Positions 41,001 to 63,850 of a stretch of DNA of 64,000 nt are shown here, piece by piece; the first letter of the stretch is position 1, and each line of letters opens with the position of its first letter. Made by a program: the position numbers and the translations under genes. This DNA comes from Xestospongia bergquistia (Eukaryota > Porifera > Demospongiae > Haplosclerida > Petrosiidae). The stretch is taken from the NCBI GenBank assembly GCA_963965975.1, contig OZ014421.1, positions 2,779,001-2,843,000 of the forward strand, written 5' to 3'. The notes under the pieces were generated by a model that was not told where the DNA came from, ran no database searches, and was given only the letters and a program-made list of their open reading frames with translations.

Positions 41001-44000
41001 CAATAGACTTAGTGTCATATCCATTCATTCATGAAAGAAAAGAATGCCTGTTTGTGCATGTGTTTAATTATTCAAATATATTGACATCATAATTACAACA
41101 TTTTAAAGAATATAATGAATCAATAGGCTGGGTTTATATTGATGACATTTTATCACTACATGAGTCCTCTCATTCCTGATGGAACACAAGCTATCTCTTG
41201 TTGTCGAGTTTGTCATGTGTGCAGAGATTTATTGCGAGTAAGGAGTGTTATACTTGTTCAGTAAAATTGGAATCCTAAATGATTAGGCTTCTTGTATAAC
41301 TGGTTGATCCATCATTAGAGCTAAAAATGATTTATTCTCAAGACAGAACAGCTCTTCTTTGTGCCAACAAGACCAAGATTATGATACATCACGAATGATT
41401 AGACTTGGAAATGCAATATCTTTCTAAAACCACTTGGTGACCACACTAAGACATCTTTTTTGTCATATACAGGTCAAAGAACAAAAGTGGTCCTTTTAAG
41501 AGATAGACTTAGTTTTCCTAGCTGCTATAGATTGTAAAGTAGAATAGCAGATAAGTTATTATCTGCACTACAGGTAGCTATTTTTGATAGTACGATAAAA
41601 GGAATTTTCATCATAGTTGACAGAGGATTCCTACAGTATACTATTTTCCAATAAATCTGTGGAAATAAACACATCTACACAGGCAGTAGTAACCATGTAT
41701 TCTTTTATAGACTGTGTAGTATGTGATATTATAGATATAACGATATATCTGTTCCATGTTGAGACATACTGTTTAACCACAAACCCTATATTACATAAAA
41801 TGTATGTTATCTTGTCTGTAATATATTACATGATATAGTTAACCATACTATGTAATAAACAGATCAGTACTACATTGTATATATCCTATAACCTTTTATG
41901 ATTATAACACGTTAGTGAATATAAACATTAGAATAATACCATTTGAATAGAAGCAGACTTTTTAATAACTACACAGTTATCACAGTACTAATACACTGTG
42001 TGTGTATAGACAGATAGTTAAAGTCAAATTAGATTACTATAATTAGCTTATATGAATTTTACTACAAAAGATCTTTTTGATCACTTACATATACAATAGA
42101 AAATATACATAACTATGAGGTAATGAAGGATAAAAGGTCAACAGTGAACACATGACAGACAATACTTAATGTACTTTAGATGTCAATGGTTTTACTGAGT
42201 TTAGTACTATCAATAGAAAGTTAGAATAGTAATATTGTGATGAAGTTATTGAGAATTGACTATAATAATATGTATGTGTTGAGTTACATCAATGGACTAT
42301 TTTCAGTCACTGTTGTGCTTTCATGTTTATTAGTGAGTGTGTCATATCATCTACACAAGCTATATTAATTCTGTGTCATATTACTGTCATATGTAATCAT
42401 TGTTTTATAGTAGATCAATTCTAGTATAAATTTTATAATAATAAAGGTTTACGAGAAATAGTAAGAATTTACGTTACTTTCTATTTTCAGTTTAATAGTG
42501 TTTATATAAGATAAGATAAATACCTCACTTAGAGGTAAGCAATGTGATTCATTATTGAAATTGTATTAGAAGTTTATTACTTTAACTACTGATACACACA
42601 ACAATCAATGAATATTATTACTGTTATCACAAATGTTTTTATTTGGATATGATTTATATAATAATGTATGTCATTAATTATTTTTTCCGCCTAGCATACT
42701 GCATGTGTTGGTAGTGCTAACATTGTTTTGGACAACATATTGTATACATATATTATATTGGTATGTCTATTTCATAATTACTTTTTACAGCTTAAGAATG
42801 AAAGAAATGAAATTAATCCACATATACAACTACTAATGTACAAACAACCAATAAATATTATTACTTTTACAGTGAGCACTATCATTTGAGTGTGAAACTT
42901 TTAAGTTTTGTAATTAAAGAAAACGTAGTACTTGAAAATCTTTATTGTAATAATAATCCAGTTCATTACATCATCAATAGTGTCTTCAAAAGAGTGTTAG
43001 AATATATTATGAAGTAACATTTTGTTTTTGTTTGTCATTAGTGTTACATTGTATATACTGATAACCAGTAATCTACAATATTTGAATTGTTCGACTAATA
43101 CAATAATAAATTAAGGATAGGGTCAAGATAAAAGTGTCACTCTCACTTTATTAAACAACCAGTATTGTTGATCAATACTAATTAATTAGCATTAGTTATT
43201 ATTTGTATATTGTGTAATAGAAACATTATTATCACAATTAGAGCTCATATAATGACAGTAGTCTCATTACATATGACATAACCTGGTAACTCATTACTGA
43301 TTGGAGGGAATTGAAGTCATTTACTGTTCCCATTATGAGTGATTAATGTATATACCTGGCAAAAATACAAATTCAACTATATTCTAGAATACTTTCTACA
43401 ATTCTTAGCACTTATCAGAGCTATCATATAACACTTGTTTGCTGACATTTCTATTAATACTACATGTGTCTTTAAAGTACCTTTAAGGGAAAAGCTTTTC
43501 TAGTATATTTTGATGGTTGATTAGTGATAGTGTATGCAAGTTAATAATGAAATATAAGAAGTCCACAATATTCACTGAACATTGAGACAAAGAATGGAAA
43601 GTTTCTTTAGCTTTTATGAAATTGTGATACCTTTTCCAAACAGAAATTATATCATATTATATATAATCATTAAATTCTATGAAAATGAAAATACCCAGTC
43701 TTTATTTGACCAGTATATCAAGTACATGTACATGTTATATACACGTACATAATGTTAATGATGATAACATGTAATTAAATGTCCTCACTTAATGTGTATC
43801 TATAATTACATATTTTTCTTATTAATTGCAGTTTGGAAATACTCCACTAATAATAGCAGCAGCTAATGGCCACTTAGATATTGTTACCATGTTAATTAAA
43901 CATGGTATCAATATCCACCATACTGATGGGGTTAGTAATATATGTGTGTATATTGATGTAGCCTCTACTTTATACTCTGTTCTATTTAATGTATATAAAA

Positions 44001-47000
44001 TGAACAATAACAGTCTAGCACATATTATATTAATTAATAAAATGTTATGAAATGATGACTGTTCACTGTTTATTCAAAACCATTTCTCCTATCATTTCTT
44101 TGTAGTATCATAAACATGTTGTAATGAAATGCACTAAAGTTCTTAACCTCGCTGCGGTCTTATCCAGAGACTTCCTTATCCTCCTCAAGTGAAGTAATCT
44201 CATGTGATGCGCAAAATGATTATTGATGACTCAGCATTTCTCTTCAATCAAAGGGAAAAAAAGCTTTGCCTTTTAGTCCATTTGCTAGGTACTTTGTACT
44301 CTAATTGACAAAAGGTCCAATACTTTCCAACTTCCTATTAAAAGTTAGTAATTCTCCAATGATAGCTATGGTGCTAGTATTTTTAGTTCATGCTCATTGT
44401 ATCGACAAAGATAACTTTAAAAAGTAAGTAAAACAGTCATAACTTTCCAAAGAAGTATTTCTTCAAAAATTTGCACTTTAAAAAGTTAGAAAATGTCATA
44501 AGCTGTATGCAGAAGATTTTTATTGAGTTTTAGAGTCTTCACTGAAAGCTGTGCTTTTTTTTCAAATGTTTTTCAGACTTCTAAAGCTTTTTGTTCATTT
44601 GTTGCTCCTTTTGGCAGTATTCTTAAGAAGTGCAGAAGTTTTGCTACCGCTCACTATAGTTTGGTGGCTACCAGTGCCATATTTGCTGAGTTAAAGCAGT
44701 TCAAAGCCATTTGCCCGCGTAACAGACAGAGAGAGAGACATACACACACTAACAGACTACAGAAACCCTTGATATGCACCCACTCACAGCAAGGTTTATA
44801 ACGTACATACAAGTCTATAAAATGGTGGAGAAAATTATTATTTTGGATGCTAGAAGTGGTTGTTTTGTGAAGAACGAAGAGGAGAGATTGCATTGTCTGT
44901 AGTGATAGAAATGAAAAACGCCACCTAACATTGTTTGTCTGTCAGACTTGTCCAGAGAATCCAGCGTTATGTTCAGACAAGTGTTTTAAAAAATATCATA
45001 CCTAATAGATACTCATCAATCATACTTATCCACTTATCACATATTTATTTCATTATATAAGTAAAAGAACATACAAAACTACTAACCTGTACACATTGCT
45101 ATGGACAGCACATGCGTTCAAGTATCCAAAGTAATGGTCTGATAGGTCAGAACAACAAACACATACATCTGATAGACATCTTAAAGCAACTCATCTACTT
45201 GAGAAGAAGAGAATAAACATAAAAAGGCTTTAATGCAATGGTCATATACCTTCCATATCTTTTAAGCATTGTACTAATGTATTCAGGTTGTTACTGTCAG
45301 AACTTTGGTGTATTTCAGTTTTAACTTTTGTCATAAACTTTAGAGTAACAACCTTTCTAGTATTGCTTTTCAAGTATTGCTGAAGTACCTGTTTATTTAC
45401 TTTCATCTCTAATAGCTTTGCTTCTTCTTTTTTCTTGTCATGATCAAGTCTTCTTTGGTGAGGCAAATGGTCATAGATTTCATATTTAAACAATCAACTA
45501 TAATTCTAAATTTATAAGTATAGACAAGTGTTTGTTTACTTTATTCATTTCATGATTATGATCTTCAATAACATTGGACACTTTTACACACTGTTTATCA
45601 AAACTTACTATGATTTTTATTCTAGCTTCACAACCTTGCTTCAAAGTGTTGAAAGTGTTTAAAAGTATATAGATAGTGAAATAATCACATTAGTTCACTA
45701 TCTTTCATTAGTTGTGCCCCTAGATCCTTTACTTTTAGAGTCTTCACTACTAAAAACACAAGTAAAATGATCACTAAAAAGCACAAGTCTTTGTTTGTTC
45801 CCTCAACTCACTTTTATACACTCCTAATTGAGACTTCTACAATCTCTGCAAAATAGCTGAACCAAATTTTTAGAATCAAATACCCCTTTATTTTAGCCTA
45901 AAGATCAGTATGGGAAGAGAAAGTCTCCGCAACAACAAATAAACAATATGGCATGTGCTACAGTAACTTGTTGTTGTGTCAATGGGTGTGGCTTTTCATT
46001 TTAGGGCGTGGTTTCAATTGAAAGAACGCATCCAGTTATAGGCACTACCACCTCAATAGCTATCACTATACCAGACAGTAATGATAAAGGATCAGAAGAA
46101 AGTATTGATACATGATTGTAGAGTACAAGTTGTGAGATATTCTTTAAACCAGGACCGTAGATCACTTGTCACAATGAGTTTCAATGATTGGAACAATGGC
46201 AAAGTCCTCAAAACTTTAATTTCATTTGCTAATATACATAAAGATTATTAATAATTAGTTGCCATTACTTCTATAGTGCCCCCGCGCCCAAACTTTCAAA
46301 ATTAAAGTTAAAATTCAAAAAATTATATCTTTTCAAGGGTTAACTTTTAATGATTAATAATATCCATCTAGACAGATATATTATTTGGTAATCACATCTT
46401 AGCAATAATTTCACTTAAAAAGTTTATATTTAAAAATGCCTGCCCTTATTTGCTGTATGCATAAATTATAAAAAATTGTATAATCTAAAGAACTACTCTA
46501 TCAAAAGTTCCTCATTTCTTGCATACCTGTACTGTATACTTATAGTATCTTATTTACAGAAGGTTTTGTAAAGTAGTTTAGTATTTTAAATTCTAGAATT
46601 TTTTTTTATGAAATAAGAAAAAAAGATGAGCTCATAAATGAAAAAAGGAAAAAATTACAAAAATATATCTTAAAAGTAAGGTTATTGCTAAGTAAAATTA
46701 CAGAAGATTTTTGGGAAATTACAAATATTGAAGCAAATACATTCATTCTTGTTTGTTTACTCTTACTCAGTTACTTTTACTTTTCGATGAGACTTGTAAA
46801 TTTTATATTTATTTTTTAATCTGCCATTGCAATTTTTGTTTTACCGAAAATTTGTCCTAGGATAAAAATTATCTGTTCTTTTTATCCTATGGGATACAAT
46901 TTATCAAATATTTTTTAACCTAGGACAAGAAACATCTGAAAATTTTTATCCTACTGACCAAAAAATTATCCTGGGACATAAATAACTTGCTGCCAATTTT

Positions 47001-50000
47001 TTATCCTAGGATAAAATTTCTCGACATTTTTTATCCTAGGATAAAATTTCTCAAGATACTTTTTATCCTAACATAAAATTTCTCATAATACTTTTTTATC
47101 CTAGGATAAAATGTTTCAAGATAACTATAGTAGTCGAACAATGTAAATTTCTCTTAAGTTAAGAAGATATTCAGAATACATTTTGTCTTAAAGTAGTAAC
47201 ACACAACTATAACAAAAATAACAAAGAAAATAAAGTCTACAGAAACTATTTATAAATATCAAGGACAAAAATTAAGGGTTTCAACTGTTGCAATTCCAAC
47301 GTGCAGCTTTATTGTCAAGCACTACATCTGGTACATTCACACGTAAATCATATGATACCACTCTTTGCATGCATCACATTTGATCATTTCTCTATTTCAG
47401 GCATTCTGCACAAACAGTATATGGAATATATAAATGTAGCTGAGACTTTAGTGATTTATCTTCCAATCCTTCTAGTTGGAAAGTCTTTAAAGCTGCCTTC
47501 AGTCAGACATAAATGTAAATGACTTCTCATTTTTGTTTGCTCAAACATGTATCGACTAGGATCATCTCCTTTGGCTAGAATTGAGATAAATCCGAGAACA
47601 AACAGCCCACAATCAGCTGATCCAGCTTGCGATTAACAATGACAATACCTACATAAGTAAACATAATAAGTAACCGTGCAAATGTTCATACTTGAGAGTG
47701 ACTTCTTTCTTTTGTAATGGAAGACACAAAATAGCAGATATTTGTCTTTTAAGACTCTTAGTTAGAGCAGGCCTCATACTTTCATAAACATTAACCTCGC
47801 ATAACTTACTTGCAATAGTTGAAATGCCAACCCAATGGCCACATCCAGTATGTAAGACCTGGACAAATTCTGATGTCATTATATTGAAAGCCAATGTCAG
47901 GTATAGATTTGTGTTTTGAAAGCTGGAATATGTGTTGGAATACTTTCATATGCAGAAAGTGTCAGCTGAACTTGAGATAGATTCAGCTTTTTTATTGGAG
48001 AAAGAGAATGACATCCAATTGGAATAAAAACAGGATGAAAACCAGCTTCTTTAATCAATAAGCTACAGAAAAAGGCTTCGGTATCATGGAACTGGATGAA
48101 GCCTTTGTTAAATTCAGCGAAAACTTGTGAACTTTGTTGACTCCCAATTACAGTTTGAGTGGAAGACATAAATGGCATAATAGGAGACAGGAAGTTGGCG
48201 TGAAAGAAAGACCTAATAGGAGATTGGGAGCGATGGAAGTTACTATGAAAGGATGAAGGCTGGACATGACGAGAAGATGAGAACTGAGAATGTTCTGAGT
48301 TATCATTCTTTAACAGACACTGAGATTGTCGCGAATTATCATCTCTTGATGGAGACTGTCATTGTTGTGAGATATCATCATCTATTAATGGAGACTGAGA
48401 TTGTTGTGGGGTATTGTCATTTCATGACTTTAGTGAAGATTGAAGCTTGGAATTGTTGTCAGAAGACACAAGATAAGGCTTTAAATGGATACCATGGATT
48501 CTTGCTGTTATTTTCCCATCGACCAGGCTCTTCAGAGAAGAGAAACCTTTGCCATCGTCTTTAGTAACTTGAAAAGGACCAAGCCATCTATAGTCTAAAC
48601 ACCCTCCTGCTCATCGTTTTTTTCTAAAATCTTTCTTAAGAACCTTTATTCCAATATCAAACTTTGGTGGTGTGATGTATTGACTCAGTTATGGTTAATA
48701 ACTTTTCAGTACAAACACATTAACATATAACACAGACACAAGACTAAAGATCAAATAATAACACAACATGAACATTTTATAAAGTATATTGACTAGATCA
48801 CTTATGGGACAGGAAGTATGCACAATATAATGATATTCATAAGTATTACAACACAATAATCAAATAGTAATACAGTACAGGTGATTGCTATGTTTTCTGT
48901 CATAAATATTTTTCTGTGGTATTTTGATGTTCTCTGTTACATTTTCAAACACTACCTTTCTATTTGTAGTAAGTTTAGAAAAAGAATCATCCTGTATAAT
49001 TGAGCTTGCAATGATACCTAAAACTTATAATAACTAAAACTCGCGGATTGACTAGTTGTGAGATAATCCTCCAGTACTTCATTTCCTTCCTTTAGTGTAG
49101 TCAATTGAACAGGAAGAACAGCCTTCCTTCCAAACATTACCTCAAATGGTGCATATTGGGATGATGCATGCTTGGATGTGTTGTAGGTGAATACACAAGA
49201 ATGAAGATACATGTCCCAATCTTCCTTTTTCTCATGTGCATATTTAACAACCATATTTTTTAATGTCTGCTTCCATCACTCATCTAATCCATTGGCCTGA
49301 AATATGGTAGACATAAGGTCAATATTGAAACACAACATACTTGAGGATGATATGGAGTGGTAAAATGTCTTTTAATGCCCAGCAATTTCATCTCCTTATC
49401 AACTTCTCTTCTAAATTCCCTTCCTTGATCACTTGTAAGAAGTTTGGGCAAACCCATCCTCATAAAAATCCATAAGACCAAGTAACAAAACAATACATCT
49501 ATCAATACATAGAATACCTTCATTAATAAAGTAATTACACATTTACTTGGCAGTAGTACAGCCTCCACCCACTTAGCAAAATAATCTGATAAATGTAGAA
49601 CGTATCTGTTGCCATTCTTTGAGGCTGGGTTTATGGGTCCAATGAAGTCAATACCAACATGGAACCATGGAGAATGAACTGGAATTGGATACAATTCAGG
49701 ATATGATGTCAGAGGCTTCTTATTGACTCTTTGGCAAATGTCACAAGTTGCAATCTATAGTGTTAGTAGCTAAAAACAATTTTGTTTGTGTTCCTTAACT
49801 AACCATTTCTTTTACATCTTTTATAACTCCCTTCCACATAAATCTCTCCTTTATTCTTGCAACTGTTTTAGCAAATCCTAAGTGCCCAGATGTGATATCA
49901 ATATGGCAATCATTAGCCACTCTAATCTGTTCTGCTCTGTTCTGTACATATTTCACCATCTGTTAAATAGTAAATGTATTGGTAACACTTTTAAATAAAA

Positions 50001-53000
50001 ATAATACAACTAACCTGCTTATCTTTCCTTGATAAATAAAACAATTCACCATCATTTACAACAAAGTTCTCTGCTTTTTTTCTTATTTGTCTTTTTCTAG
50101 TAGCAGTGCATTCTTTAGAGTATCTTTTTTCCACAATATAGTGGTAAACTTCATCTAATAGATCAAATTCATCAAAATCATCTCTCTCTGCCATACTTCT
50201 CAGCTCTCTTTTCAAAAAGTAACACGTTACTAAAGGTCAACAGCCTTCCTTCATACTTAACTGCATTCTTTGAGTTGGCATAAGTATTGTTCTTCAGTTT
50301 ACTGCATTCTTCTAGGTTAGCGCGATTGGAATCAGCCATTTTGATCTGGTAGGACAAAAATTTACAACAGCAGACAAAAAATTTCAGCAGATATGTTCAA
50401 TTATTTTGTCCTAGAACAAAAAAATTTTTTAGGGACAAATTTTTTCGTGACAAATCTGCTTTTCTAACTCAGGGCCAGCAGCTAGACCTTCTATATAACC
50501 TAACATGTATTGCTTTGCCTTGCTACGTTACTTTTTGATGTTTTCTATTGTAACAGTATCTAGAGCCAGTGGAATGTTTTCACGTAGGTTTGGAAAGGTA
50601 TAATTAGTATACACTCTGGTGTATCTCTTTGATTGTCCACAGCAACGTTCAATGGGGTTAAATTCACAGTGGAACTTGGGAAGTATTATGCAGCAATGCT
50701 GACGATTGTGTAAATATCGATTGTGCTCATCTGTAAAGTCTGAAACCATAATACCAGCACCTTTACCCTTTGGTTTAATCGAATGCATGTCAACACTACC
50801 CCACTGTGTTTAGCTGAGAATATCGATTCATCATGAAATATGACAACAGTCTTGTCAAGAATAGCAGTAGGATGACATTCAAGATCACTTGGAAGACACT
50901 GAGCAGCTTCAATTGTTGGAGCATTGTCTTTGTTAATAAATCCCTGAGTAACCATTTTACGAATGAATTTCCGCCTATACTCAAGCACATCATCTCTTTC
51001 TTGTCTGTCAATGTATTACCCTTTTGTTGGTCCAAGACATGAAAACCAAGCTCATGCAGCCACTTTCTAGAGGTTTCAACACTAACTCTTCGAGGAAAAC
51101 CTGATTCATTGGGCCGAAGCTCTTCATTGACCCATTGGCAAAATGATCTTGCTGTCATGTTCGGTCGTCCTTTTACTTAAGCATTTTCTCACGCAAACTG
51201 TCTAACACACTTTTTTAATCGCTCATTGAACCACAAAACACCTCTTTGTTGATATCTTCCCCGTAAAGAATCTGGGAAATTGTTACTTTTACTTAAAAAC
51301 ACTACTCTCCATTCTCTAACAGTTCAATCACTTTTCTTGACTGTCTCTCCAATCAATTTTGCTGCGTTTGTTTGTGAAAGGTGCATCCTGGTTACCAACA
51401 AATTATGCAAGAGAAGAGTAAGAGACATAATGTCACCTCTGTGCAAACTACTTAGCCAATCATGAGCATACAATTACACAGCAGCATCTTCTTCCATGTC
51501 TTCAATTGATGGCTCATACCACTCATCTTCTGATGATTGATAATCATTTAAACTTGTAACTTCTTCTTGAGTAAACTCTGGCTCATTAGTGGAAGATACA
51601 GTCTTATTTCTTTTACTATTTCTAGCATTAAGTAACTGTATAATTCTTTTTCTCTTACTACTTTTTGGTGGCATTGCGTTAAGGGCATTAATTAGAATAA
51701 CGTGTGCACGCATTTGCCAAATATATTGATTTTGATTGGTCAGTGCATAGTAACCCAAAAAAATTTTCGAAAGTGACCGTTTTTTCATGCAATTGAAAGT
51801 ATTCTAAGAAATATTGAAAAAAGTTCATTGTTGCTATGGAGCTACTTGATGCTTTAATTTTTTAATTATTGACGTAAAAATGGAAATTTATGCCTTGTTG
51901 CATTGCATGGACATGTATACATGTCACATGACTTTAGTACAGTATTGTTGCTATCTAGAAGCTGTAATAGCTGTATCGACATTTATAAATGTTGTCATAG
52001 TGACTTGAAAGGCTATTCTAGTGCTTTGATATTGGATTACCTCATTAATACACTCGTTAAACTTGTATTTCTTTATTGCTTCACTGCTACCTCCATACAC
52101 ATGAATGTACAAAACCACAACACTTATAGCAACAAAAAAATTAGAATGTCAATGTTCACTAAACTATGAAGAAACTATTAAACAATAAGTAGGACTAGTT
52201 ATAATAAACATAATTCTGATTGGATGATAATGAGGAATTTCTCAACATGTTTTGCTTTGAAAACAGTGATGATGAATATTTAGATGATGAGGAATAGGTC
52301 TGGAATGAGATAAATAGAGATATGATTTAAAATAGAGATAAAACAGAATCATAAATTGATAAGCTATGTAATATTTGAGAAAATATGAAAGATATTAAGC
52401 AGGACAGGTATTAGCTAGCATTCACAAATACATAAGAACAACTTTTATCTATTACATAATGGCCATCAATTGTAATGACCATTATTCACTGTTGTTGTAT
52501 TATGATAATAAATTATTACTTTCCAGAGATAACACAATTTAATTGTCAACACATTTCATGGATATCAGTATACAAGATTTCATACCATATGATAAACCTC
52601 ATTGTCTAACTAACATCATAACTTTGTACTCACTACTTGATATACTTTAGTGTTTGCTTGTACATGACATTCACTGTTATCTTGATGATCAGTCAAACAT
52701 CTATGCAAATACCTGTTTAGTAGAACCCTACAAATCATTGGATAAGGAAACACCAGATGAAATAAGAGCTTATATGGTTTTATGATCTTGACTTGTCTTG
52801 TACTACTACATGCTTTAGATGATTACTGGCACAGGAATTCAACCTTCCATTATGAGCCAATAGCTACTAGGATTATTTGAAGGTGATTTGTTGATATTTA
52901 CTGGTTTCTCCATTTCCTGATAATAGCAATCTACCACACTATTATGTGTCACTTATAATTAACTAGAAATAATAGAACCAATTCTTACATACAAATTCAG

Positions 53001-56000
53001 TGAATATTTATACCTGGTAAAGAACAAAGAACAGATGAGGCTGTGGTTCCATTCAAAGGATATTTTTCAATGAAACAAAGATCTGTCACCACTTCCATCA
53101 TTTTTTTGGACAATTTTTATGGAAGTTGTTCCCCTAGATCTATTGATAAAGAATACATATACATGTGAACCAATGATATTTGATAGACAGGGCTTTTATA
53201 CAACATTTAAATCCATCACAAAAAATGGTCTCTCTCAGAGTGGAGATAGTGAGTGTATACAAAATAGTCATAACTGTATTCCAGCTCATCAAGCCATTTT
53301 TACTTGTACCTCAATAAATGCAAATGCAAATAACAAGGTTTCTATAAAAAGGAAATTGAAAAATGGCTTCGAAATAACTTGTCCTCAGGCAATTTCTCTT
53401 ACAAGAAATTCATGAGTGGAGTCGATAGGAATGACCTGTTGTGGGAATATTATAATTTGTGTTTGAAAACTTGTGAAACATTATCTTTACTGGTGTATAT
53501 TTGATCTTGTCATTACAAACATATTCATCTTGTAGTTTAACTTCACATACCTCCATACATAATTGTGAAAGATGTAACAATAAGTCATGTGATTTTAACT
53601 ATAATAACACTTATAATTGACCAGCTTTGAATGCGAGTTTGTCCAGACATTCCTTCCCTTGCAGAATGTCTGGCTTTGAGATTGTAAGCCCTTAATTTAA
53701 GTCTTCAATCTTCAAACTCCCTACAATTAAAAACTGACCCATTATTACTGACTATCTTGTCAGGAAGTCCAAACGTTGAGAACAATTGGCGTAGTTTCCC
53801 AATTGTTTCACTGGAAGTAGCAGCTTTGACTGGAAGCACCTCTAGCCATTTTGAGTGTGAATCTATGATGATGAGAAACGTTCGTCCTAAGTAGGGTCCG
53901 GCATAATCAATGTGTAGCATGGACCATGGTCTTGTTGGCCACTCCCTTGTGTGGAGTAAAGCTAGAGGTGGTGAATTTCTGCTCAACTGACACACATCAC
54001 AATTACTAACTTTCTTTTCTATGTCATCATCTAGTTTCAGCCACCAAACATAACTTCATGCTATGGTTTTCATCTTGAAAATGCCAAGGTGAGACTTGTG
54101 AATTTCATCCAATACACATTCCCACAGCTTTGGTGGTGTTATAACTCTGGAGCCCCACAGGACACAACCATCTACAATGCTCAATTCAGAGTGTGTCCTT
54201 GAATATGGTGTAAAATCTTCTCCTGTCCCAATGTTATTTTTCCAACCTCGACTGACTAAAGTGGCTACTTTGGATAGGATAGGATCAGTTGCAGTACATG
54301 ACTTAATATCAGATACTGTAATAGGTGATGAATTTAGTATGTCTACCAAATGAATAATTTCAGGGGGGATGGGAACAGACTTTAAAGTATCAAGTAATGG
54401 CAATCTACTCAGACCATCAGCATGTTGTAACTCTTTACCAGGCATATACTGTACTGAATAAGTGTAACTACCCAAAATTAGGGCCCATCTTTGGATCCTA
54501 GCAGATGCTATATGTGGGATACCACGATGTTCTCCAAATAAATGCATTAATGGCTTATGATCAGTATGTATTATAAATCTCCTACCTGAGAGGTATTGAT
54601 GGAATTTCCTGACTCCCGCAATGATGGCTAATGCTTCTTTGTCAAGTTGTGAGTAGTTCCTCTTGGTTGTTGATAGCGTCCTCGATGCAATGGTGATCGG
54701 TTGTTCTTCTCCGTTGTCTAAACAATGAGATGGGACAGCCCCTACTCCATAAGGAGAAGGTGTTACATGACGAGCCATTGCTTCCCTGCTGCTTAGTAGT
54801 TCAGGACCAACACTTGACCTTGACCTTTTTTTCTAGTCTTTCGTCGTAAGTATGATCCCACCTTGTCGCCAATTGTAGTGTATTGAGTACAGCAATATTA
54901 TAATATGAATAAACAATAACTAGAATAATGAAGCCTTCTCACAAACCATACAACATACTTATATATACACAACCATACAGACCACTTAGGGGTCCTGACC
55001 ACAAACGATATAATGGTATTAATAATATATAATACTACACTACAGTACACATTAATAACCACAAATACAAATCAAAACTTACTATTTTGTATTTATAAAG
55101 AATGACTAGTTTAGTTCAGCTTTGACACCTTGTCTCCTTATAACTGAAGTTCTCATTCTATTCATAAAACTAACAGAGGTTCTCTAGCACAATTAAATTA
55201 ATTCTTCACTTCTTTTAGACCTATTAGATTGATAAGCATTTAGTAATGTAGTATATTAAGTCTACAGTAGTAGCTATATATACATGAACATAACTGTACA
55301 ATAATTATACCATTGACAATATCACATAGTGGATGTTTACATGAAATCATTAAAATTATGAATGTATTATGTGTTACTAGTACATTGAGTTGAAATTTAT
55401 CTGTATAGTGTGTATTGTGTATGTATTACTTCTTTGTTTAATTTATTACTATAGGATGGCTGGACTGTATTACATTTTGCAGCCTACGAAAATCATGCAG
55501 AGATCATCAAAATATTAATTGCTAATGGAGCTGACATTGCTGCTGTCACTAAGGTATGAAAGATTATTATATGTCAAGCAGTCAAGAATCATAGATAATA
55601 TGTTAAGTATTATATTTATAGGGTATTATAGATCAATGAAAATACTGTTTTGTGCTATTTATTATTGTTTGTTAACTGTGAACACCAGCAACATCACTTA
55701 TATATCTGGAATGCTCAGTATAACAAATTTAACGTACAGTTAGGACAGTACTTTCAACAAGTTCTATTGTGATATCATTGGCTTCGAAGTTGTTCAATAT
55801 CAGTAGACCAAAATTCAACTGTTTTGCTGAAAGATTTGATTTTGCTGTGGACTGACACCAGATATATCAAAGGTTTATCACCTTATCACCTATACTAGTC
55901 TAGTCTAGGCCAGTCATCTAGGTTCTCTAACTTGAATGGATCTTAGATTATCCATCTCTCCTTGATCCGTACAACTGCCACTATGTAATGTAATATTGTT

Positions 56001-59000: not shown

Positions 59001-62000
59001 AATAGGAAAATTGAAAACTGGCTCATGAATGACTATAACTTGTCCTCAAATAATTTCTTTTGATAATAAAGTTATGAATGGAGTGGATAAGAATGACAAT
59101 CTGAGGGGATATTATAATGTGTGATTGAAATCTTGTAAATTTTAAAAAACCCTTTCTGGTGTTGCCAGTAAATACATGTTCACCTTCCATACAAAAGATG
59201 AAAGATTATAATGTAGCACTTGCAAAAGCTTTAATTGGAGACTTTAACTCTCAAAAATGAAGAGGATGGCCATCAATATAAATATGAAGTACGTACATAT
59301 TTCTGCTAGAACCACTTCCTGTTCTAGGTAGTAAATGATGTCACAAATATTACCATTGTAGAGAGTACAAAAGATGATGAGGAAGAGTGTTGTTCTATGA
59401 GGATTATGACAAAGTCCTGTACCATATAAAGAATTAAACATGTCTACTTCATCTTATTTCATAGATATCATGGGCTAAATGTTGACACTTTAGTATAAAG
59501 CAGAGAATTAAATGTACTTCAGATAAAAATAAGTAGCCCACACACAAAAAAATTGTTAAATATTGTCTATAAACTTTATATGAAACATGATCATGAAATA
59601 TTAAACATTTCAATGATAAGATAAATCAATTCTTGGTAAATAAACACTCACCAGATCTCGATGACTGAGTCAAGCATCATCTTTGATAACCAACTGCTTT
59701 CAAAATATTACTAGAAAATAAACTGTCACCTTTAAAACATATGTATATAGCCTAAAACACAGAGAGACCGAAGTGACCGTAAACACCCACGTAAATAATT
59801 TAGTTAGTCATTGAATGTTTAGTTACATAAATTCTGATTAAAAACGTTTAATATTTAATATCTTAGTTTGGGCTTTAGTTCTTTTTCCAACCTCTTCTTT
59901 GCAGCCATAATAGTTCTGGTGTCTCGTTTCAAAATTCCACACAGTTTACCTGTCTTTACTAATTTATAATCGTTCAGTTTGGTCTCCAGTTCTGGAAAAC
60001 TGTAGAATAGACCACCAACATTAAAGATAGAGCCACTCTCAATCACGTGCACCAACTTTGCTAGGCAACGGTCAAATTTAACCCTTTATTCAGCTTGGTG
60101 CTGTCTGGTGGATAGCAGTGTTCTGAGAGATACAGGTGAACCTCTTCATTAGATAGACTCCTCTGACTTGATCTCTTGTGTCCTCTTTAATGTTCTTGTT
60201 CATATCTCCAATGATGACTTTTGGGGAATCTAGATCGTTTATGTAGCACATCTTTTTCTTAAGTGTCAAAATAAAGTATACAGCTTTTCGAATTCGCTCT
60301 CTTCTCCTTCCGTACAATTAGCCTCTCCTTCTATACAATTAGCCTCAATCAAGGCCTAGAGATTGGGATTCAATATTTCCTAATGCATACTATTTGGGAT
60401 ACCAAATATCCTTAGGGAATGCAAAATATCCTAGAATATATTACTCGGGGATACCAAAATTATGGAATGTCATATTTCCTATTTCCTTGAAAAAAAATGC
60501 TATTAGTCTTTTTATAATATGCAAATTAAATGAGTATTAATTGCATTCCTTTCCAAACACAATAAAGATAACTATGTAAACTCAAAACAGTCATCAACCT
60601 GTTCTCACTAGTTAACAAACTTTACTATAAGATCCAGTTAGTTCATTACAACTAAAGCTGAACAAAGCAGATGACTTAGCCTGTTACAAATATTAATCTC
60701 CATCTACAAGTACTCGTGTGCTTGGGAGGAGTCCATGTAGTCTTTTTTACATCTAGGATATAGTTTACTCTCATTTGGAATAACAAACTGGTAATCTGTA
60801 AAAATGACAGCCATTGTTGTTGAGAATACTGTTCTCAACAAACATCAAGGATATCAGTATAAAAGATTTCATACCATGTAATAACCTTGTAATTTATCTA
60901 ACACCATTACTTTGTACTCACTACTTGACCCAGTAATTCAGCTAATTCTTATTGTGACAACTGAGACTGTTGTGATTTCATGAAATCGCTAGAGTTTTTC
61001 GTGAATTTATGAAGTCCCTAAGTGAAACAGTGATTTCACAAAATCCCTGAGAGTTTGAGGGATTTCACAAAATCCCTATATACACAATCTTACTGTAACA
61101 TATATATGATCAGTGAAATCTTTGTACACAGTAAAGAAAAGAGCATAGATGAGGATATGGTTTAATTCAAATGATGTTTATCAATTAAATGGTATATACC
61201 AAAGTGCCATCTTATCATGGGTTTAAAAGATTCCCCTCAAAGATGAAATATTGTGTACAAAACTTGTAATTGTATGGAAGGATAACCAATCCTTCCCTTG
61301 GACCTCAAGAAAGCCAATCAAAATGAAGCTTGATTTCTTCCCTTGATACTAGAACAAATACTTTTATCTTAGTTTGGAATAACAAAATACATTATATTTA
61401 CAATTTCCTTTTTTCCAGTTTTAAATTGCATACATCAACTCAAGAATTGCCTTTATTAGCAAATTCTTTCTTGCTATTACAAACACAACGTCTTCAGTGT
61501 GCCACCTAATAAAGTACATCCAATATACAAACCTCTATGAATATAATTATCATAATTATGAACACTGTGATGTAATTTGTGAAATAGTGCATAATCTAAT
61601 AACCTACCAACATTCCTTTTCAATATAATATTTTAATATCATAACTTAGTTTCTTCTGAACCCTGCTAGAATGATTAAGTAATGATAGTTTCATGTAAGA
61701 CCATTTTAGTCCATCTTTAATTACCACAACTGCAGCCATACATTTGATTGGCAAAAGAAAAGCAACATTAATTAACTTTAATATTAAGATGATCAACTAC
61801 TTACATAGCTTTAACATAGAAGATAAGAAACAAATGTGAACCTGTAGATATTTTCAGTGTGCTTATGAAGGCTAGCACTACAATGAATATATCACATCAT
61901 ACTAGACCAATTTATACATATATATGTTGAGTAGATGTTAAATATTCTTTAATCTACACAGCACCTTATATTACATAGTTTAGCACAGAAGAAACAAATA

Positions 62001-63850
62001 TAAGCATATACTTATTAATGAAAGTTTACAGAAATCACTGGGAAAAACAAACTGGTTCATTACAACTAAAACTAAGCCAAGCAGACAACTTGGCCTGTCA
62101 TAAGGTGATTGTTTCTTGACAAGTTCTCTTATGCCAGGTTCACTTTATTTATTGTCTATATTTTTACTTTAGATTTCTTAATACTAATGCACACATGTTT
62201 TTAAATACAACCCTGTGTGCACAATACAAACCTTACATCACAAAGCACAATTCTCTATCAGAAATAATAATACTGCTATATCAGTGTGTTTGTAACCTCT
62301 CCTTTTTCACAAATTGATTTTTACAAAAAAATAAATTACAATAATTTTATTTTTCCCTCTCATCCTACATTATGACTAATAAGACAATTAATATAAAATT
62401 ATCTAACATAGTACCATATCTGACTATTGTCATGACTATGTAACAATATCTACAATAGTTTGTCATGTAAATGTATTTTATAATAAATAAATATATGTAA
62501 ATTGAAACACAATGACAAGATATCTGAATAGAGACAATATCTAATTTGACAAACACTTGTAACTTGTGTGGACATTAATTTTATATAATTGATTTAACTT
62601 TCCTACATCATTTCAATGATATTAACCCTTAGATGATCACTGTTACAAATTAGTGACATGATCACCTTCATTAATAACCACTGTCACTAATTAGTGAACG
62701 AGGAATGTTAATTAAAAGGGAATTAGATAATGATTTCATAGAAGTTGTTGTGTTAACATTAATAACCACTAATACAAATCAAAACTTACTGTTTACTATT
62801 TATAAAGAATGACTAGTTTAGTCACTGAAGTACTCTTTCTATTTATAAAAATGGAAGAGGTTCTCTATTATGTTAATTATTCCTGTATTAAGACAGATTG
62901 GTTTGATAAGAGTTTTATAATGTAGTATATTAAGTCTACAGTAGTAGCTATATATACATGAACATAACTGTATAATAATTGTACCATTGACAATATCACA
63001 TAGTGGATATTTACATGAAATCATTAAAATTATGAATGTATTATGTGTTACTAGTACATTGAGTTGAAATTTATCTGTATACTGTGTATTGCGTATTTAT
63101 TTTCTCTTTGTTTCATTACTACAGGATGGCTGGACTGCATTACATTTTGCAGCATCCAGTAATCATCCAGAGATCATCAAAATATTAATTACTAATGGTG
63201 CTGATATTACTGCTGTCGATAAGGTATGAAAGATTATTTTTTATTTCATCAAATATTCAAAGATCATAGAAAAAATACTAAGTATGATATTAAAATGTTA
63301 TTATAGATCAATGAGAATACTCTTTGTATTATCTGTTATTGTTTGTTAAATATACATGAAGACTGGTATAATCACTATTTTGTATAAGTATCCTATTCAG
63401 TTTTTTAGCTAGAAATTACAGATATATTGTGTTAGAATCATAATTAATTTGGTATCTAGGAAGTACAATATTACAATTCTTTAATACAAGGTTTGTATAA
63501 AATGTTTTTATACCAAATATTTGAATGAAACTAGTGGCTTGACACATTTTGTTATTTTGAAATTGCATCTCAAAAATCTCAGCTTTGTAAACATACAGTT
63601 GCTATATATGCATAACTATTCTATATGTATGCAAAACTGTTGTTTGATATATTTTAGTAGCAGTGTCTTAACAAATTATGTCACAAATGTTTTGCAAATC
63701 AAGTCACATATATAATATTTCATATTAATAAAAATATTATGTTTGGCTTTCTATTATTATATATATGTTCCACTCAGGATGGTATGACTGCAGCTGAATT
63801 AGCTCAGAGAGAGGGCTATCGAGACATTGCAAAGCTAATTATAGATGAAG
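37995..63850 (+). CDS. Ankyrin-repeat gene, partial at 3' end
   Basis: Seven coding exons: 37995-38012, 38385-38477, 39996-40097, 43832-43930, 55455-55553, 63125-63223 and 63778-63850. All internal exons are phase 0 and each encodes about one 31-34 residue ankyrin repeat. Every exon is open and every junction is GT-AG. The 194 residues seen contain no stop. Ankyrin stacks bind proteins. The last exon matches the one at 3300, so Roc, COR and Death exons likely follow beyond base 64000. Introns 4 (11.5 kb) and 5 (7.6 kb) hold most of the transposons in the window, on both strands. ATG 37995 was chosen because it opens a short exon MDNNEL ending at a clean GTGAGT donor. Confidence 0.78.
38385..38477 (+). 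CDS. Ankyrin gene exon 2, repeat 1
   Basis: Acceptor TTTGTTAG and donor GAG|GTATGT. It encodes VRRGRLNEVKEALQQGANVN, a typical first ankyrin repeat, 31 residues. Confidence 0.8.
39295..39479 (+). mobile_element. 185-bp MITE with 8-bp target duplication
   Basis: The ends are GGGTGGTTCTTGGTGTAACT and the reverse complement of GTTACACCAAGAAGGACCC, about 22 bases with two mismatches. AGCTTCAC flanks both sides exactly (39287-39294 and 39480-39487). An 8-base duplication is the hallmark of hAT-type transposition. There is no coding capacity; the middle repeats TGATGTCATCAT motifs. It sits in intron 2 of the ankyrin gene. Confidence 0.85.
39996..40097 (+). CDS. Ankyrin gene exon 3, repeat 2
   Basis: Acceptor TATGTAG and donor ACTAGT|GTAAGT. 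It encodes 34 residues including FWASCRGYTDIVQYLIKEAK and DPNIP, an ankyrin repeat of slightly unusual length. Confidence 0.8.
40098..43831 (+). other. Ankyrin gene intron 3
   Basis: This 3.7 kb intron is AT-rich with no well-supported gene. Near 41200-41270 there is a Cys-rich stretch (CCRVCHVC, then CYTC in another frame) that might be a ruined piggyBac finger, but support is weak. Confidence 0.5.
43832..43930 (+). CDS. Ankyrin gene exon 4, repeat 3
   Basis: Acceptor AATTGCAG and donor GGG|GTTAGT. The 33 residues FGNTPLIIAAANGHLDIVTM onward match the ankyrin consensus (G-x-TPL--AA--GH---V--L) very well. Confidence 0.85.
44889..45005 (+). pseudogene. Orphan piggyBac C-terminal zinc finger
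   Basis: The frame CIVCSDRNEKRHLTLFVCQT, then CPENPALC and CFKKYHT followed by TAA, is the piggyBac C-terminal cross-brace finger seen also at 23640-23781. No catalytic core is recognisable upstream, so this is a 3' fragment in intron 4 of the ankyrin gene. Confidence 0.65.
45242..45493 (-). pseudogene. MULE/ZSWIM-like transposase fragment, tentative
   Basis: The frame reads YDHLPHQRRLDHDKKKEEAK, LEMKVNKQVLQQYL, then RKVVTLKFMTKVK. I associate HLPxQRRL with a following VTLKDL-like block with the region before the catalytic core of Mutator-like elements related to ZSWIM3. No catalytic D/E or SWIM motif is visible here, so only the fragment can be described. Confidence 0.35.
45494..46836. other. 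Part of ankyrin intron 4 without assigned genes
   Basis: AT-rich sequence with poly-A and poly-T runs. I recognise no gene or transposon end. Confidence 0.45.
46851..47118 (+). repeat. Palindromic subterminal repeat array
   Basis: About eight imperfect copies of a 25-35 base unit centred on TTTTATCCTAGGATAAAATT follow each other. Clear copies centre at about 47010, 47041, 47074 and 47105. Each unit is itself a near-palindrome with a CCTAGG core. Related TTGTCCTAGAACAAAA units lie at the other end (50415-50440). This looks like a transposase-binding array. Confidence 0.75.
47456..48178 (-). pseudogene. Ulp1-like cysteine protease domain
   Basis: Two frames (48178-47897 and 47894-47675) plus a last exon (47625-47456) give FIPIGCHSLSPIKKLNLSQV, then FVQVLHTGCGHWVGIST with the catalytic His in GHW, an NVYES strand where the Asp/Asn partner sits, and GSADCGLFVLGF with the catalytic Cys. 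This is the C48 peptidase layout that removes SUMO-like modifiers. A 49-base intron (47626-47674, GT-AG on the minus strand) rejoins the frame as HAGSADCGLF. The only visible break is a single-base frame change near 47920. Confidence 0.6.
47456..50339 (-). pseudogene. Integrase-protease gene of the Ginger-like element
   Basis: ATG at 50339-50337. The exon ending at 50015 carries EVYHYIVEKRYSKEC. Exon 49959 onward has the integrase HHCC finger (CHIDITSGHLGFAKT, then CDICQ after an intron). The catalytic core follows: GIDFIGP (first D), LTSDQGREF (second D), NGLDE (E) near 49285. Next come YNTSKHASSQYAPFEVMFGR, then VLKKDF with GPFQVTKDDGKGFSSLKSLV and HLKPYL near 48500, a Ser/Gln-rich linker, and a Ulp1-like protease to TAA at 47458-47456. 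Breaks: TGA at 49278-49276 just after the catalytic E, a shift near 49020, and a one-base frame change near 47920. All three integrase acidic residues survive. Confidence 0.7.
50528..51674 (-). pseudogene. DDE (IS630/Tc1-like) transposase relic with internal deletion
   Basis: Starts MPPKSSKRKRIIQLLNARNS with an acidic tail (51674-51474). A helix-turn-helix-like segment SFCQWVNEELRPNESGFPRR follows at about 51130, then TSRKWLHELGFHV. The catalytic part has VIFHDESIFSA (first D, 50840) and LPKFHCEFNPIERCCGQSKR (NPIE with the last acidic residue, 50640). The segment that should carry the second Asp (DNA-x-H) is missing: MVSDFTDEHNRYL jumps straight to HNRQHCC, pointing to an internal deletion. 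Several frame changes occur. This is a non-autonomous relic. Confidence 0.65.
51675..52553. other. Spacer in ankyrin intron 4
   Basis: AT-rich spacer between the DDE relic and a piggyBac relic. I see no gene or clear terminal repeat. Confidence 0.45.
52554..53480 (+). pseudogene. piggyBac relic, strongly decayed
   Basis: Scattered pieces in order: YANTCLVEPYKSLDKETPDE with IRAYM (about 52709-52778), a DYWHRN-like and HYEPIATR-like patch (52820), KEQRTDEAVVPFKGYFSMKQ (53020-53080, first catalytic block, with Thr before Asp), FLDNFYGS (53105) and TNDIXX (53170), VSIKRKLKNGFEITCPQAIS (53340), and GVDRND (53416). The order is that of a piggyBac transposase but stops and frame changes are many. 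The start block GATATCAGTATAxAAGATTT recurs at 60847. Confidence 0.65.
53703..54778 (-). pseudogene. Gypsy RNase H and integrase fragment
   Basis: The open frame 54778-54056 begins MARHVTPSPYGVGAV and runs directly into RNase H (ASRTLSTTKRNYSQLDKEAL, HTDHKPL, HADGLSRLP), then the start of the integrase finger region. A second frame (53995-53705) has WSMLHIDYAGPYLG with the first Asp and a VSNNGSVF block where SDNG is usual, so the second catalytic Asp is Asn. The ATG context lies in the same leader that precedes gag in the 1524 copy. Gag, protease and reverse transcriptase are therefore deleted, with the leader and start codon joined to RNase H. Confidence 0.8.
54874..55044 (-). mobile_element. 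Ty3/gypsy 5' LTR, minus-strand copy
   Basis: 171 bases with perfect ends TGTAGTGTA and TACACTACA. On the minus strand it is followed by TGGCGACAAGGTGGGATC, the likely primer-binding site, then the leader and the deleted pol frame. It matches 1524-1694. The partner 3' LTR is absent. Confidence 0.85.
55049..55675 (+). repeat. Exon 5 duplication block, copy A
   Basis: The block, including intron flanks and ankyrin exon 5, is closely similar to 62755-63349. Shared parts include ACATTAATAACCAC, GTATATTAAGTCTACAGTAG and the sequence up to GTTTGTTAA. The gypsy LTR ends four bases before it. Confidence 0.85.
55455..55553 (+). CDS. Ankyrin gene exon 5, repeat 4
   Basis: Acceptor TACTATAG and donor AAG|GTATGA. 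It encodes DGWTVLHFAAYENHAEIIKI and a NGADIAAVTK end. It is 99 bases, phase 0, and a near copy of exon 6. Confidence 0.88.
55907..57391. repeat. Duplicated piggyBac-relic segment, copy A
   Basis: Matches 57619-60136 at high identity, but lacks 646 bases (the TTAA MITE) and about 368 bases (58505-58872). On the plus strand it carries a piggyBac relic with a GVDRNDNLRGYYNV block near 56356-56400. Near 57130-57300 it carries, on the minus strand, a degraded copy of the MULE-like frame at 59855-60055. Confidence 0.85.
57786..58431. mobile_element. 646-bp piggyBac-type MITE at TTAA
   Basis: TTAA flanks it at 57782-57785 and 58432-58435. The ends are CCCTTAGAGGATC and the reverse complement of GGTCCTCTACAGG. 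Copy A of the surrounding duplication reads CTACTTAAACACAG with one TTAA and no insert, a natural empty site. Near the right end lies a CTGTCACAATATTGTGACAG palindrome. I see no coding capacity. Confidence 0.88.
59855..60055 (-). pseudogene. MULE/ZSWIM-like N-terminal fragment, tentative
   Basis: The frame MVHVIESGSIFNVGGLFYSF, PELETKLNDYK, then RDTRTIMAAKKR resembles the N-terminal segment before a Mutator-like transposase core (G-x-x-F-x-S-x-x-ELE, then a RDSRTI-x-AAKKR block). It stops after 66 residues with no catalytic part. A decayed copy lies at 57130-57300 in the other duplicate. Confidence 0.4.
60090..60317 (-). pseudogene. Possible endonuclease-like fragment
   Basis: The frame contains SPKVIIGDMNKNI, resembling the GDFN strand of exonuclease-endonuclease-phosphatase folds used by LINEs and some Helitrons, then a GVYLMKRFTCISQNTAIHQT piece. 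It is short and lacks the other catalytic motifs, so the call is weak. Confidence 0.25.
60838..61340 (+). pseudogene. piggyBac relic, short
   Basis: GGATATCAGTATAAAAGATT and CTTTGTACTCACTACTTGA match the start of the 52554 relic. A block near 61127-61160 reads KEKSIDEDMV, the first catalytic block with Asp retained, followed by stops. The rest is unreadable. Confidence 0.55.
60972..61076 (+). repeat. Short tandem repeat with hairpin units
   Basis: Four diverged units of about 29 bases share TGATTTCAxxAAATCCCT. Units 3 and 4 both contain GATTTCACAAAATCCCT exactly. The last unit reads AGGGATTTCACAAAATCCCT, an 8-base stem with a short loop. Confidence 0.65.
61341..62621. other. Part of ankyrin intron 5 without assigned genes
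   Basis: AT-rich intron sequence. I recognise no gene or transposon end. Confidence 0.45.
62626..62718 (-). mobile_element. End fragment of the TTAA MITE family
   Basis: TTAA at 62622-62625 is followed by CCCTTAGATGATCACTGTTA and about 90 bases that match the reverse complement of the right end of 57786-58431, including the GTGACAT-to-CACC and AATGTTAATTAAAA parts. The other end is missing. Confidence 0.7.
62755..63349 (+). repeat. Exon 6 duplication block, copy B
   Basis: The homologue of 55049-55675, covering intron flanks plus ankyrin exon 6. Confidence 0.85.
63125..63223 (+). CDS. Ankyrin gene exon 6, repeat 5
   Basis: Acceptor ACTACAG and donor AAG|GTATGA. It encodes DGWTALHFAASSNHPEIIKI and a NGADITAVDK end. 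It is closer to the ankyrin consensus than exon 5 (TALHFAA; AVDK). Confidence 0.88.
63778..63850 (+). CDS. Ankyrin gene exon 7, last repeat start
   Basis: Acceptor CACTCAG and donor GAAG|GTATGT. It encodes DGMTAAELAQREGYRDIAKL and IIDE, ends in phase 1 and pairs with 3300-3372. The following intron runs off the window. Confidence 0.85.

Follow-up and report, generated by a model that had tools for sequence, protein, structure and literature searches.

The stretch of Xestospongia bergquistia DNA analysed here (the window, 64 kb) contains a Gypsy-type integrase gene that ends in a Ulp1-like peptidase, which raises the question of whether it is a DNA transposon, a retrotransposon fragment or a host gene. 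Ginger elements are intermediate between DNA transposons and Gypsy retrotransposons. We conclude that this locus is very probably a dead copy from a low-copy family of cut-and-paste DNA transposons of the Ginger superfamily, with a Ginger1-like protein. The initial annotation had proposed a DNA transposon of Ginger type that carries a Ulp1-like protease, and domains, ends, 4-bp duplications and copies at different sites all back this proposal. We observe the domains and introns, the ends, occurrence at multiple sites, 4-bp duplications at part of them, and decay. Comparison of copies at different sites placed the boundaries at 46822 and 50452, with terminal letters TGCCA...TGACA, and these positions replace the ends first given, 46837 and 50453.

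46822..50452, gene on the minus strand: highly probable Ginger1-like DNA transposon of 3631 bp, the nested solo LTR included; ends taken from copies at other sites
46818..46821, no strand: target duplication, left copy AATC
50453..50456, no strand: target duplication, right copy AATC

The gene runs on the minus strand, where the signatures of an integrase with introns and of a C-terminal SUMO-protease-like domain lie as first reported. Three GT-AG introns are compatible with the reading frame, and the join across 49467-49541 is provisional.

50015..50194, minus: exon, N-terminal region with YPYY-like stretch (Y-S...F...Y)
49804..49959, minus: exon, first half of the H2C2 zinc finger (CHIDITSGH, 49882-49908)
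49542..49754, minus: exon, second half of the zinc finger (CDIC, 49734-49745) and first catalytic Asp (GIDFIGP, 49635-49655)
49341..49466, minus: exon, second catalytic Asp (SDQGREF, 49413-49433)
49045..49296, minus: exon, catalytic Glu and then an immediate TGA stop (GLDE, 49276-49290 including the stop)
48455..48668, minus: coding region with GPY/F motif (WLGPF, 48572-48586)
47900..48133, minus: start of the C-terminal peptidase region
47691..47900, minus: exon, Ulp1 His (GHWVG, 47826-47840) and the third residue of the triad (YESM, where relatives have Asp)
47459..47629, minus: exon, Ulp1 Gln and Cys (QAGSADCGLF; DCGLF, 47600-47614), gene end

In the spliced reading, Integrase_H2C2 matched at 6.3e-17, over the Pfam cut-off. 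The rve profile matched at 3.3e-4 in the spliced reading and at 9.5e-6 with the middle exon alone, both below the curated cut-off, and Ty3 integrase matched at 1e-19. The integrase D, D and E reported earlier were found in GIDFIGP, SDQGREF and GLDE, the Glu directly before a stop. By eye, without a profile, the window copy shows the GPY/F motif as WLGPF, followed by ...IHGIHLKPYL. A sister family has the same order of parts and is about 50-66% identical to the focal family in most exons; its loci read, again by eye, WLGPY (L031, L034) or WLGSY (L035). At the YPYY position the focal family has RYSKE or RYCKE, then F and Y, so that Ser or Cys replaces Pro in the readable copies; L044 reads otherwise. 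Sister loci L031, L033, L034 and L035 have YPDG there, followed by F and YY in L031, L033 and L035.

The C-terminal part, in its spliced reading, scored 27.8 bits against Peptidase_C48 (Ulp1; cut-off 20.7), and a piece of sister locus L034 scored 13.0, below that cut-off. Matches to ULP_PROTEASE proteins in the PDB were weak (E 0.11 and 0.16); the search of solved structures with the peptidase gave three matches in all (E 0.11-0.19), the last of them not a peptidase. The focal locus is not listed in a whole-genome Ulp1 profile search because its exons score apart. The protease H and C also lie where they had been placed, in GHWVG and DCGLF. The third residue is Glu in the window (YESM) and Asp in all three covering relatives (L023, L025, L030), a change from Asp to Glu here; the sister family has canonical residues (HWVTIS, IYDS, QVGSSDCG).

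This architecture is already known: H2C2, DDE, GPY/F and Ulp1 are Ginger1 features, and the part of Bao et al. (2010, PMC2836005) available to us reports Ulp1 C-termini in the Ginger1 transposases of 8 of 12 Hydra families (Ginger1-4 to -10 and -12). The suggestion of a distinct element family thus holds at the family level only, since Ulp1-bearing Ginger1 elements are known from Hydra (PMC2836005). Like these, as that text describes them, the focal element has a single spliced transposase with H2C2, DDE, GPY/F and C-terminal Ulp1, TGTNR ends, a 4-bp duplication and a length within 2.6-7 kb (PMC2836005). Unlike the Ginger1 elements of the same account, it has Ser or Cys for the Pro of YPYY, save in L044, and imperfect terminal inverted repeats; those of Ginger1 are about 40-270 bp long (PMC2836005).

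46822..47123: left terminus, imperfect inverted end with an array of TTTATCCTAGGATAAA-type palindromes (46853, 46916, 46967, 47002, 47032, 47097)
50406..50452: right terminus, one palindrome (50407) and the TTTTTTCGTGACA end

Inverted termini had been claimed for the window copy. Over about 75 bp, the imperfect inverted ends scored above all 500 shuffles in two of the three copies tested, L040 and L030, but in the window copy they are imperfect and not above shuffles (37 against a shuffle maximum of 43). Most copies end in TGTCA/TGACA; the window has TGCCA on the left, L044 has TCTCA, and L045 and L057 have TGTTA. Seven of the eight TTTATCCTAGGATAAA-type palindromes in the 64 kb window fall inside the element, and the same palindromes occur in part of the diverged sister family's loci. 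We found no such subterminal CCTAGG arrays described for Ginger1 in the available part of PMC2836005.

Ends unique in the genome would have pointed to a host gene, and they are not unique. Within one mismatch, the right end matched 12 times (including the window and four C11 neighbours) and the left end 8 times; at up to three mismatches the counts were 71 and 18, whereas reversing the patterns gave 1 and 0. The exact end CGGACCAAATTTTTCGTGACA occurs at 27 places, 17 of which were retrieved. Because its ends recur across the genome and are flanked at part of the sites by 4-bp duplications, this is a mobile element and not a host gene.

The target duplications of the copies, which the initial annotation proposed to read, were perfect over 4 bp at three of the seven independent insertions with both flanks (AATC, ATGT, GTTC), three of four bases were alike at two, and there was none at two (L027, L044). 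Three perfect sites in seven have a chance of about 9e-6 for a preset length, the 4 bp here having been settled after looking. One perfect pair joins L057 with L042, two ends 2.3 kb apart in opposite orientation that presumably belong to one insertion. Duplications of 5-8 bp were rejected, with no perfect match among the seven paired sites. A 3-bp duplication starting one base later fits five of the seven; 4 bp is preferred because a related-looking family shows a symmetric preference spanning four flanking bases (n = 17: G first in 13, R second in 14, Y third in 12, C fourth in 9).

Ginger1 targets CCGG or CCGT/ACGG, as given in the available part of PMC2836005, and here the focal element departs from it: none of 23 focal-group flanks reads CCGG, CCGT or ACGG, nor does any of the 17 flanks of the related-looking family or of three sister loci. 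The 23 flanks include single-ended copies, with the left flank only where flanks differ; L029, L041 and one of L051/L057 each count as one with the duplicated site to which they belong, and C11 copies with the start of the window's right flank were counted once. For sister locus L034 the flank, GGTA, comes from reading by eye. A purine stands first in 19 of the 23 focal-group flanks. Targets are AT-rich at part of the sites; taken together the flanks do not resemble TATA, though two read ATAT.

Could the element belong to Ginger2/Tdd instead of being Ginger1-like? The 4-bp duplications, the AT-rich targets at part of the sites and the absence of CCGG would suit this reading, and H2C2, DDE, TGTNR ends and a 4-bp duplication are shared with Ginger2/Tdd as far as the source describes them (PMC2836005). 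The focal element, however, has GPY/F (WLGPF) and a Ulp1 C-terminus. In the sections available, Ginger2 is described as being without GPY/F and YPYY and as preferring RTATAY targets, and Ulp1 is described for Ginger1 (Bao et al. 2010, PMC2836005). We therefore regard a Ginger2/Tdd assignment as very unlikely.

For the Ginger1-like transposon, an intact element would have carried a single spliced gene for a transposase with an integrase-type H2C2, DDE and GPY/F module. This module would bind the element ends, probably via the CCTAGG palindromes as putative binding sites, and the transposase would cut the element out and join it across a 4-bp stagger. The Ulp1-type peptidase probably stripped SUMO or ubiquitin at the reaction site, and its substrates may have been host repair or chromatin proteins, or the transposase itself. 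It is possible, and we put it forward tentatively, that these families form a separate Ginger subgroup combining a Ginger1-like protein with a G-R-Y-C-like four-base target and ends recognised via subterminal CCTAGG arrays, kept in part across families. If so, target choice would have shifted while the protein plan stayed within an integrase-like lineage, and the non-CCGG targets offer a natural comparison for the determinants of integrase target choice. Ulp1-bearing Ginger1-like families in a further animal genome, that of a sponge, would mean that the group reaches an early animal branch. Judged by titles and the starts of abstracts, the literature searched on Ginger in sponges or on KRBA2 with Ginger held nothing on topic; passing mentions within these papers are possible.

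The solo LTR of a foreign retroelement is nested within the transposon.

48673..48879, minus: nested solo LTR of a Gypsy-type retrotransposon, 207 bp, TG...CA; foreign to the transposon (strand assigned from retroelement frames in L024)

GGTG flanks this solo LTR on both sides (48669-48672 and 48880-48883), and the LTR is missing from L023 and L042. Both LTRs and the body of the retroelement are present at L094/L024, where reverse transcriptase and RNase H frames adjoin the integrase; there the retroelement interrupts the transposon's coding region and, by eye, has an integrase of its own. The claim that Gag, reverse transcriptase and LTRs are absent held for Gag and reverse transcriptase, with no Pfam match in 17 of the 27 listed open frames scanned (at least 60 aa, 44000-53000), but not for LTRs, given the foreign one at 48673-48879. 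The element ends bear no long direct repeat that would be a Gypsy-type LTR of their own among the repeats listed, and the only LTR inside the element and the reverse transcriptase at L024 are parts of the nested insertion. Very probably, a Gypsy-type retrotransposon inserted later into the lineage of the window copy; in the window the solo LTR is its sole remnant, and its body persists in neighbouring duplicates.

That the whole locus is a Gypsy LTR retrotransposon fragment with only its integrase kept is extremely unlikely. The Gypsy-type integrase, with its zinc finger, DDE core and Ty3 match at 1e-19, the frames beside the integrase in L024 and the window's solo LTR would fit. Yet the retroelement is nested, with its own LTR, GGTG duplication and integrase (by eye), splits the coding region and is absent from L023 and L042. 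The focal gene itself is interrupted by spliceosomal introns and encodes a Ulp1 domain, and duplications lie immediately beyond the element's termini; these three features reject the fragment reading. The integrase tree also speaks against it: eight rows of the focal kind (window, L023, L024, L026, L031-L034) form one side of a 100/100 branch against Ty3 and 12 other integrases of the genome, in a tree that drew a program warning of long branches and left out reference Ginger1 proteins and the focal-kind L021, L022, L025, L027-L030 and L035-L039. These 12, several of them near-identical, remained from 15 retrieved loci after three with short frames were dropped, and their label "Gypsy" stands for an integrase plus a frame of more than 900 aa in 10 of the 12.

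The window copy is dead: five stops interrupt the gene in frame, the catalytic Glu being followed immediately by one of them, and there are frame breaks, the peptidase change from Asp to Glu and the nested solo LTR. Since no intact copy was seen among those examined, activity of the transposon is deduced from fossil copies. C11 copies L021-L024, L026 and L028 lie within segmentally duplicated DNA with flanks in common, and the window copy probably rose in number on its contig by being carried along in such duplications. Truncation of C11 copies at 48734 was rejected, as this position falls within the nested Gypsy-type LTR. L023 and L024 lack the stop that follows GLDE.

A domesticated host gene of the GIN1 or KRBA2 kind, a transposon in looks only, could account for the several introns and for the gene-family-like segmental duplications of these C11 copies, but it is extremely improbable, as the ends recur at unrelated sites, part with 4-bp duplications, and the frame is broken, with the post-GLDE stop common to five of the seven covering C11 copies (window, L021, L022, L026, L028); a solo host gene is rejected by the repeats and duplications. 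According to Bao et al. (2010, PMC2836005), Ginger1 gave rise to at least two host genes of vertebrates, and descent from Ginger1 is stated for GIN1/GIN2 in that paper and in PMC9004415. The focal element shares introns with GIN1/GIN2 (PMC2836005; PMC9004415), but those are host genes and it is a decayed mobile repeat.

Further copies of the transposon are present elsewhere in the genome (146 Mb, 21 contigs). By comparing copy edges, we fixed the transposon ends as TGTCA...TGACA. With at most one mismatch, the terminal patterns occur at 12 places for the right end and 8 for the left; with at most three, at 71 and 18, and the reversed patterns at 1 and 0. Three mismatches characterize 56 of the 71 right-end matches, and 27 of these 56 have one identical other end sequence. 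Target duplications were judged at seven independent sites with both flanks read (L-numbers denote other loci of this genome). Perfect 4-bp duplications flank the window copy (AATC/AATC), L040 (ATGT/ATGT; L041 is the same site) and L057 with L042 (GTTC/GTTC), taken as one copy with mutually inverted parts. L030 has CACA/GACA and L045 has AAAA/GAAA, and the two flanks do not match at L027 (L029 is the same site) or L044. Three perfect duplications in seven would arise by chance with a probability of about 9e-6, with A and T each assumed at a frequency of 0.34 and G and C each at 0.16.

The gene was assembled by reading the three minus-strand frames and then locating each piece.

Parts of the transposon and its gene; the introns have GT-AG borders
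46822-50452, minus strand: element, 3631 bp
50015-50194, minus strand: N-terminal exon
49804-49959 and 49542-49754, minus strand: H2C2 zinc finger, its two halves on two exons
49542-49754, minus strand: catalytic stretch GIDFIGP
49341-49466, minus strand: catalytic stretch SDQGREF
49045-49296, minus strand: catalytic stretch GLDE
48455-48668, minus strand: GPF motif
47900-48133, 47691-47900 and 47459-47629, minus strand: peptidase region
49960-50014, 49755-49803 and 49297-49340, minus strand: introns

A low-complexity linker separates the GPF motif from the peptidase region. The three introns (44-55 bases) are plain from the frames, and comparison with L040 is consistent with a putative fourth at about 47640-47690. 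The coding pieces on either side of 49467-49541 are joined tentatively. Pfam matches to Integrase_H2C2 (6.3e-17) and Peptidase_C48 (2.8e-6) exceed their cut-offs, and rve (3.3e-4) falls under its own. Among solved structures, the integrase matches those of Ty3 (1e-19) and foamy virus (1e-17).

In a tree with 12 other integrases of the same genome and Ty3, a branch supported at 100/100 separates eight rows from the window family and its diverged sister family from all the rest; the program warned of long branches meeting among the remaining rows. Placement relative to Ginger1, Ginger2, GIN1 and KRBA2, whose sequences lie outside this tree, rests on diagnostic features. For Ginger1, Bao et al. 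2010 (PMC2836005) give GPY/F and YPYY motifs, TIRs ranging from about 40 to 270 bp, TGTNR ends, 4-bp CCGG/CCGT duplications, 0-4 introns, and Ulp1 C-termini in 8 of 12 Hydra families. Other papers give the same 4-bp length (PMC10045372, 2023) and support the descent of GIN1 from Ginger1 (PMC9004415). Our element shares the Ginger1 protein features, apart from a YPYY-like stretch (Y-S...F...Y) that may or may not represent YPYY, and also the TGTNR ends and the duplication length, but lacks the CCGG target. We therefore call it a Ginger1-like variant rather than plain Ginger1.

None of the 23 window-group flanks is CCGG, CCGT or ACGG, and 19 of the 23 begin with a purine. Sister-family flanks are GTCC, GGCC and GGTA (n = 3; GGTA by eye). 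A related-looking family with ends GGACCAAATTTTTCGTGACA has G first in 13 of 17 flanks and C fourth in 9 of 17; this GGACC-ended family may belong to the same group, an assignment made only on end similarity and a CCTAGG motif. The 27 exact ends CGGACCAAATTTTTCGTGACA found genome-wide form one family (for example, L062-L078) with a G-R-Y-C-like flank preference (17 of 27 ends read). At one member, L064, a CCTAGG palindrome lies close to the end. No autonomous partner of the CGGACCAAATTTTTCGTGACA-ended family was found.

With one mismatch tolerated in a core of 12 bases, we found eight TTTATCCTAGGATAAA-type palindromes in the 64-kb window, seven of them inside the element (six at the left end, one at the right). 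Relatives carry 6 (L025), 7 (L027), 8 (L029) and 5 (L030). At L034 a run of 30 adjoins the sister gene. There are 4 at each of L032 and L038 and 1 at L035, but none at L031, L033, L036, L037 or L039. This placement, common among copies, suggests that the palindromes are putative end-binding sites. By analogy with what is established for integrases, the transposase would bind the element at both ends, nick it beside the terminal CA and integrate across a 4-bp stagger. The Ulp1-type domain would probably alter SUMO or ubiquitin modifications where the reaction takes place. Bao et al. (PMC2836005) propose a repair-related role for this domain and state that the excision mechanism is unknown.

The initial annotation described an element without LTRs or reverse transcriptase. 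This holds for the transposon itself, but a solo LTR of a Gypsy-type retrotransposon is nested inside it at 48673-48879. The following observations support this. The 207 bases begin with TG, end with CA and have GGTG at either side; they are missing from L023 and L042, whose sequence continues unbroken across the point; and at C11:2590300-2602300 (L094, then L024) the repeat flanks a body of roughly 4 kb. Two of the frames read in the body exceed the Pfam cut-offs, for RVT_1 (5.3e-8) and RT_RNaseH_2 (4.8e-19), and further frames resemble gag, aspartic protease and integrase by eye. The window solo LTR and this two-LTR duplicate share one insertion point, with its GGTG duplication.

The window copy of the transposon is non-functional. 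It has in-frame stops after GLDE, KKR, SLKS, SQQ and YCHC, and frame shifts near 47900-47940 and at the N-terminus. Its peptidase Asp is replaced by Glu; all three relatives covering the position (L023, L025, L030) have Asp. Every family copy read over most of its length is disrupted, rearranged, truncated at one end or missing internal sequence, with L048-L061 represented in this survey by one fetched end each.

Related copies lie on contig C11 between 2.39 and 2.92 Mb. At L021, L022, L024, L026 and L028, the gene-start half of the transposon abuts the nested retroelement. Past the retroelement, L094 contains the rest of the L024 copy, with the window's left flank and TGCCA end; no such second half was listed near L021, L022, L026 or L028 when 47130-47940 served as the query. 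The window's right flank recurs at L021, L022, L023 and L028, and its left flank also at L023. The stop after GLDE is common to the window, L021, L022, L026 and L028, and is not in L024 or L023. The C11 copies therefore spread mainly by being carried along in segmental duplications, and at least some of this spread came once the gene was already dead.

The segmentally duplicated sequence comprises C11 2.39-2.92 Mb (L021-L024, L026, L028, L094) and window 44872-53497 and 60493-63781, with the transposon and nested retroelement joined to differing flanks. L024 and the window have the same left flank and diverge right of AATCTGC. On C1:28000441-28029125, four related right-end regions spaced at about 9.3-9.9 kb suggest another tandem or segmental array. 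Several minus-strand open frames at window 50528-51803 resemble, by eye, the remains of a transposase or of another mobile gene; their Pfam matches are all under cut-off. On the plus strand, an open frame at 43826-44050 resembles an ankyrin repeat by eye (NTPLIIAAANGHLDIVTMLIKHG).
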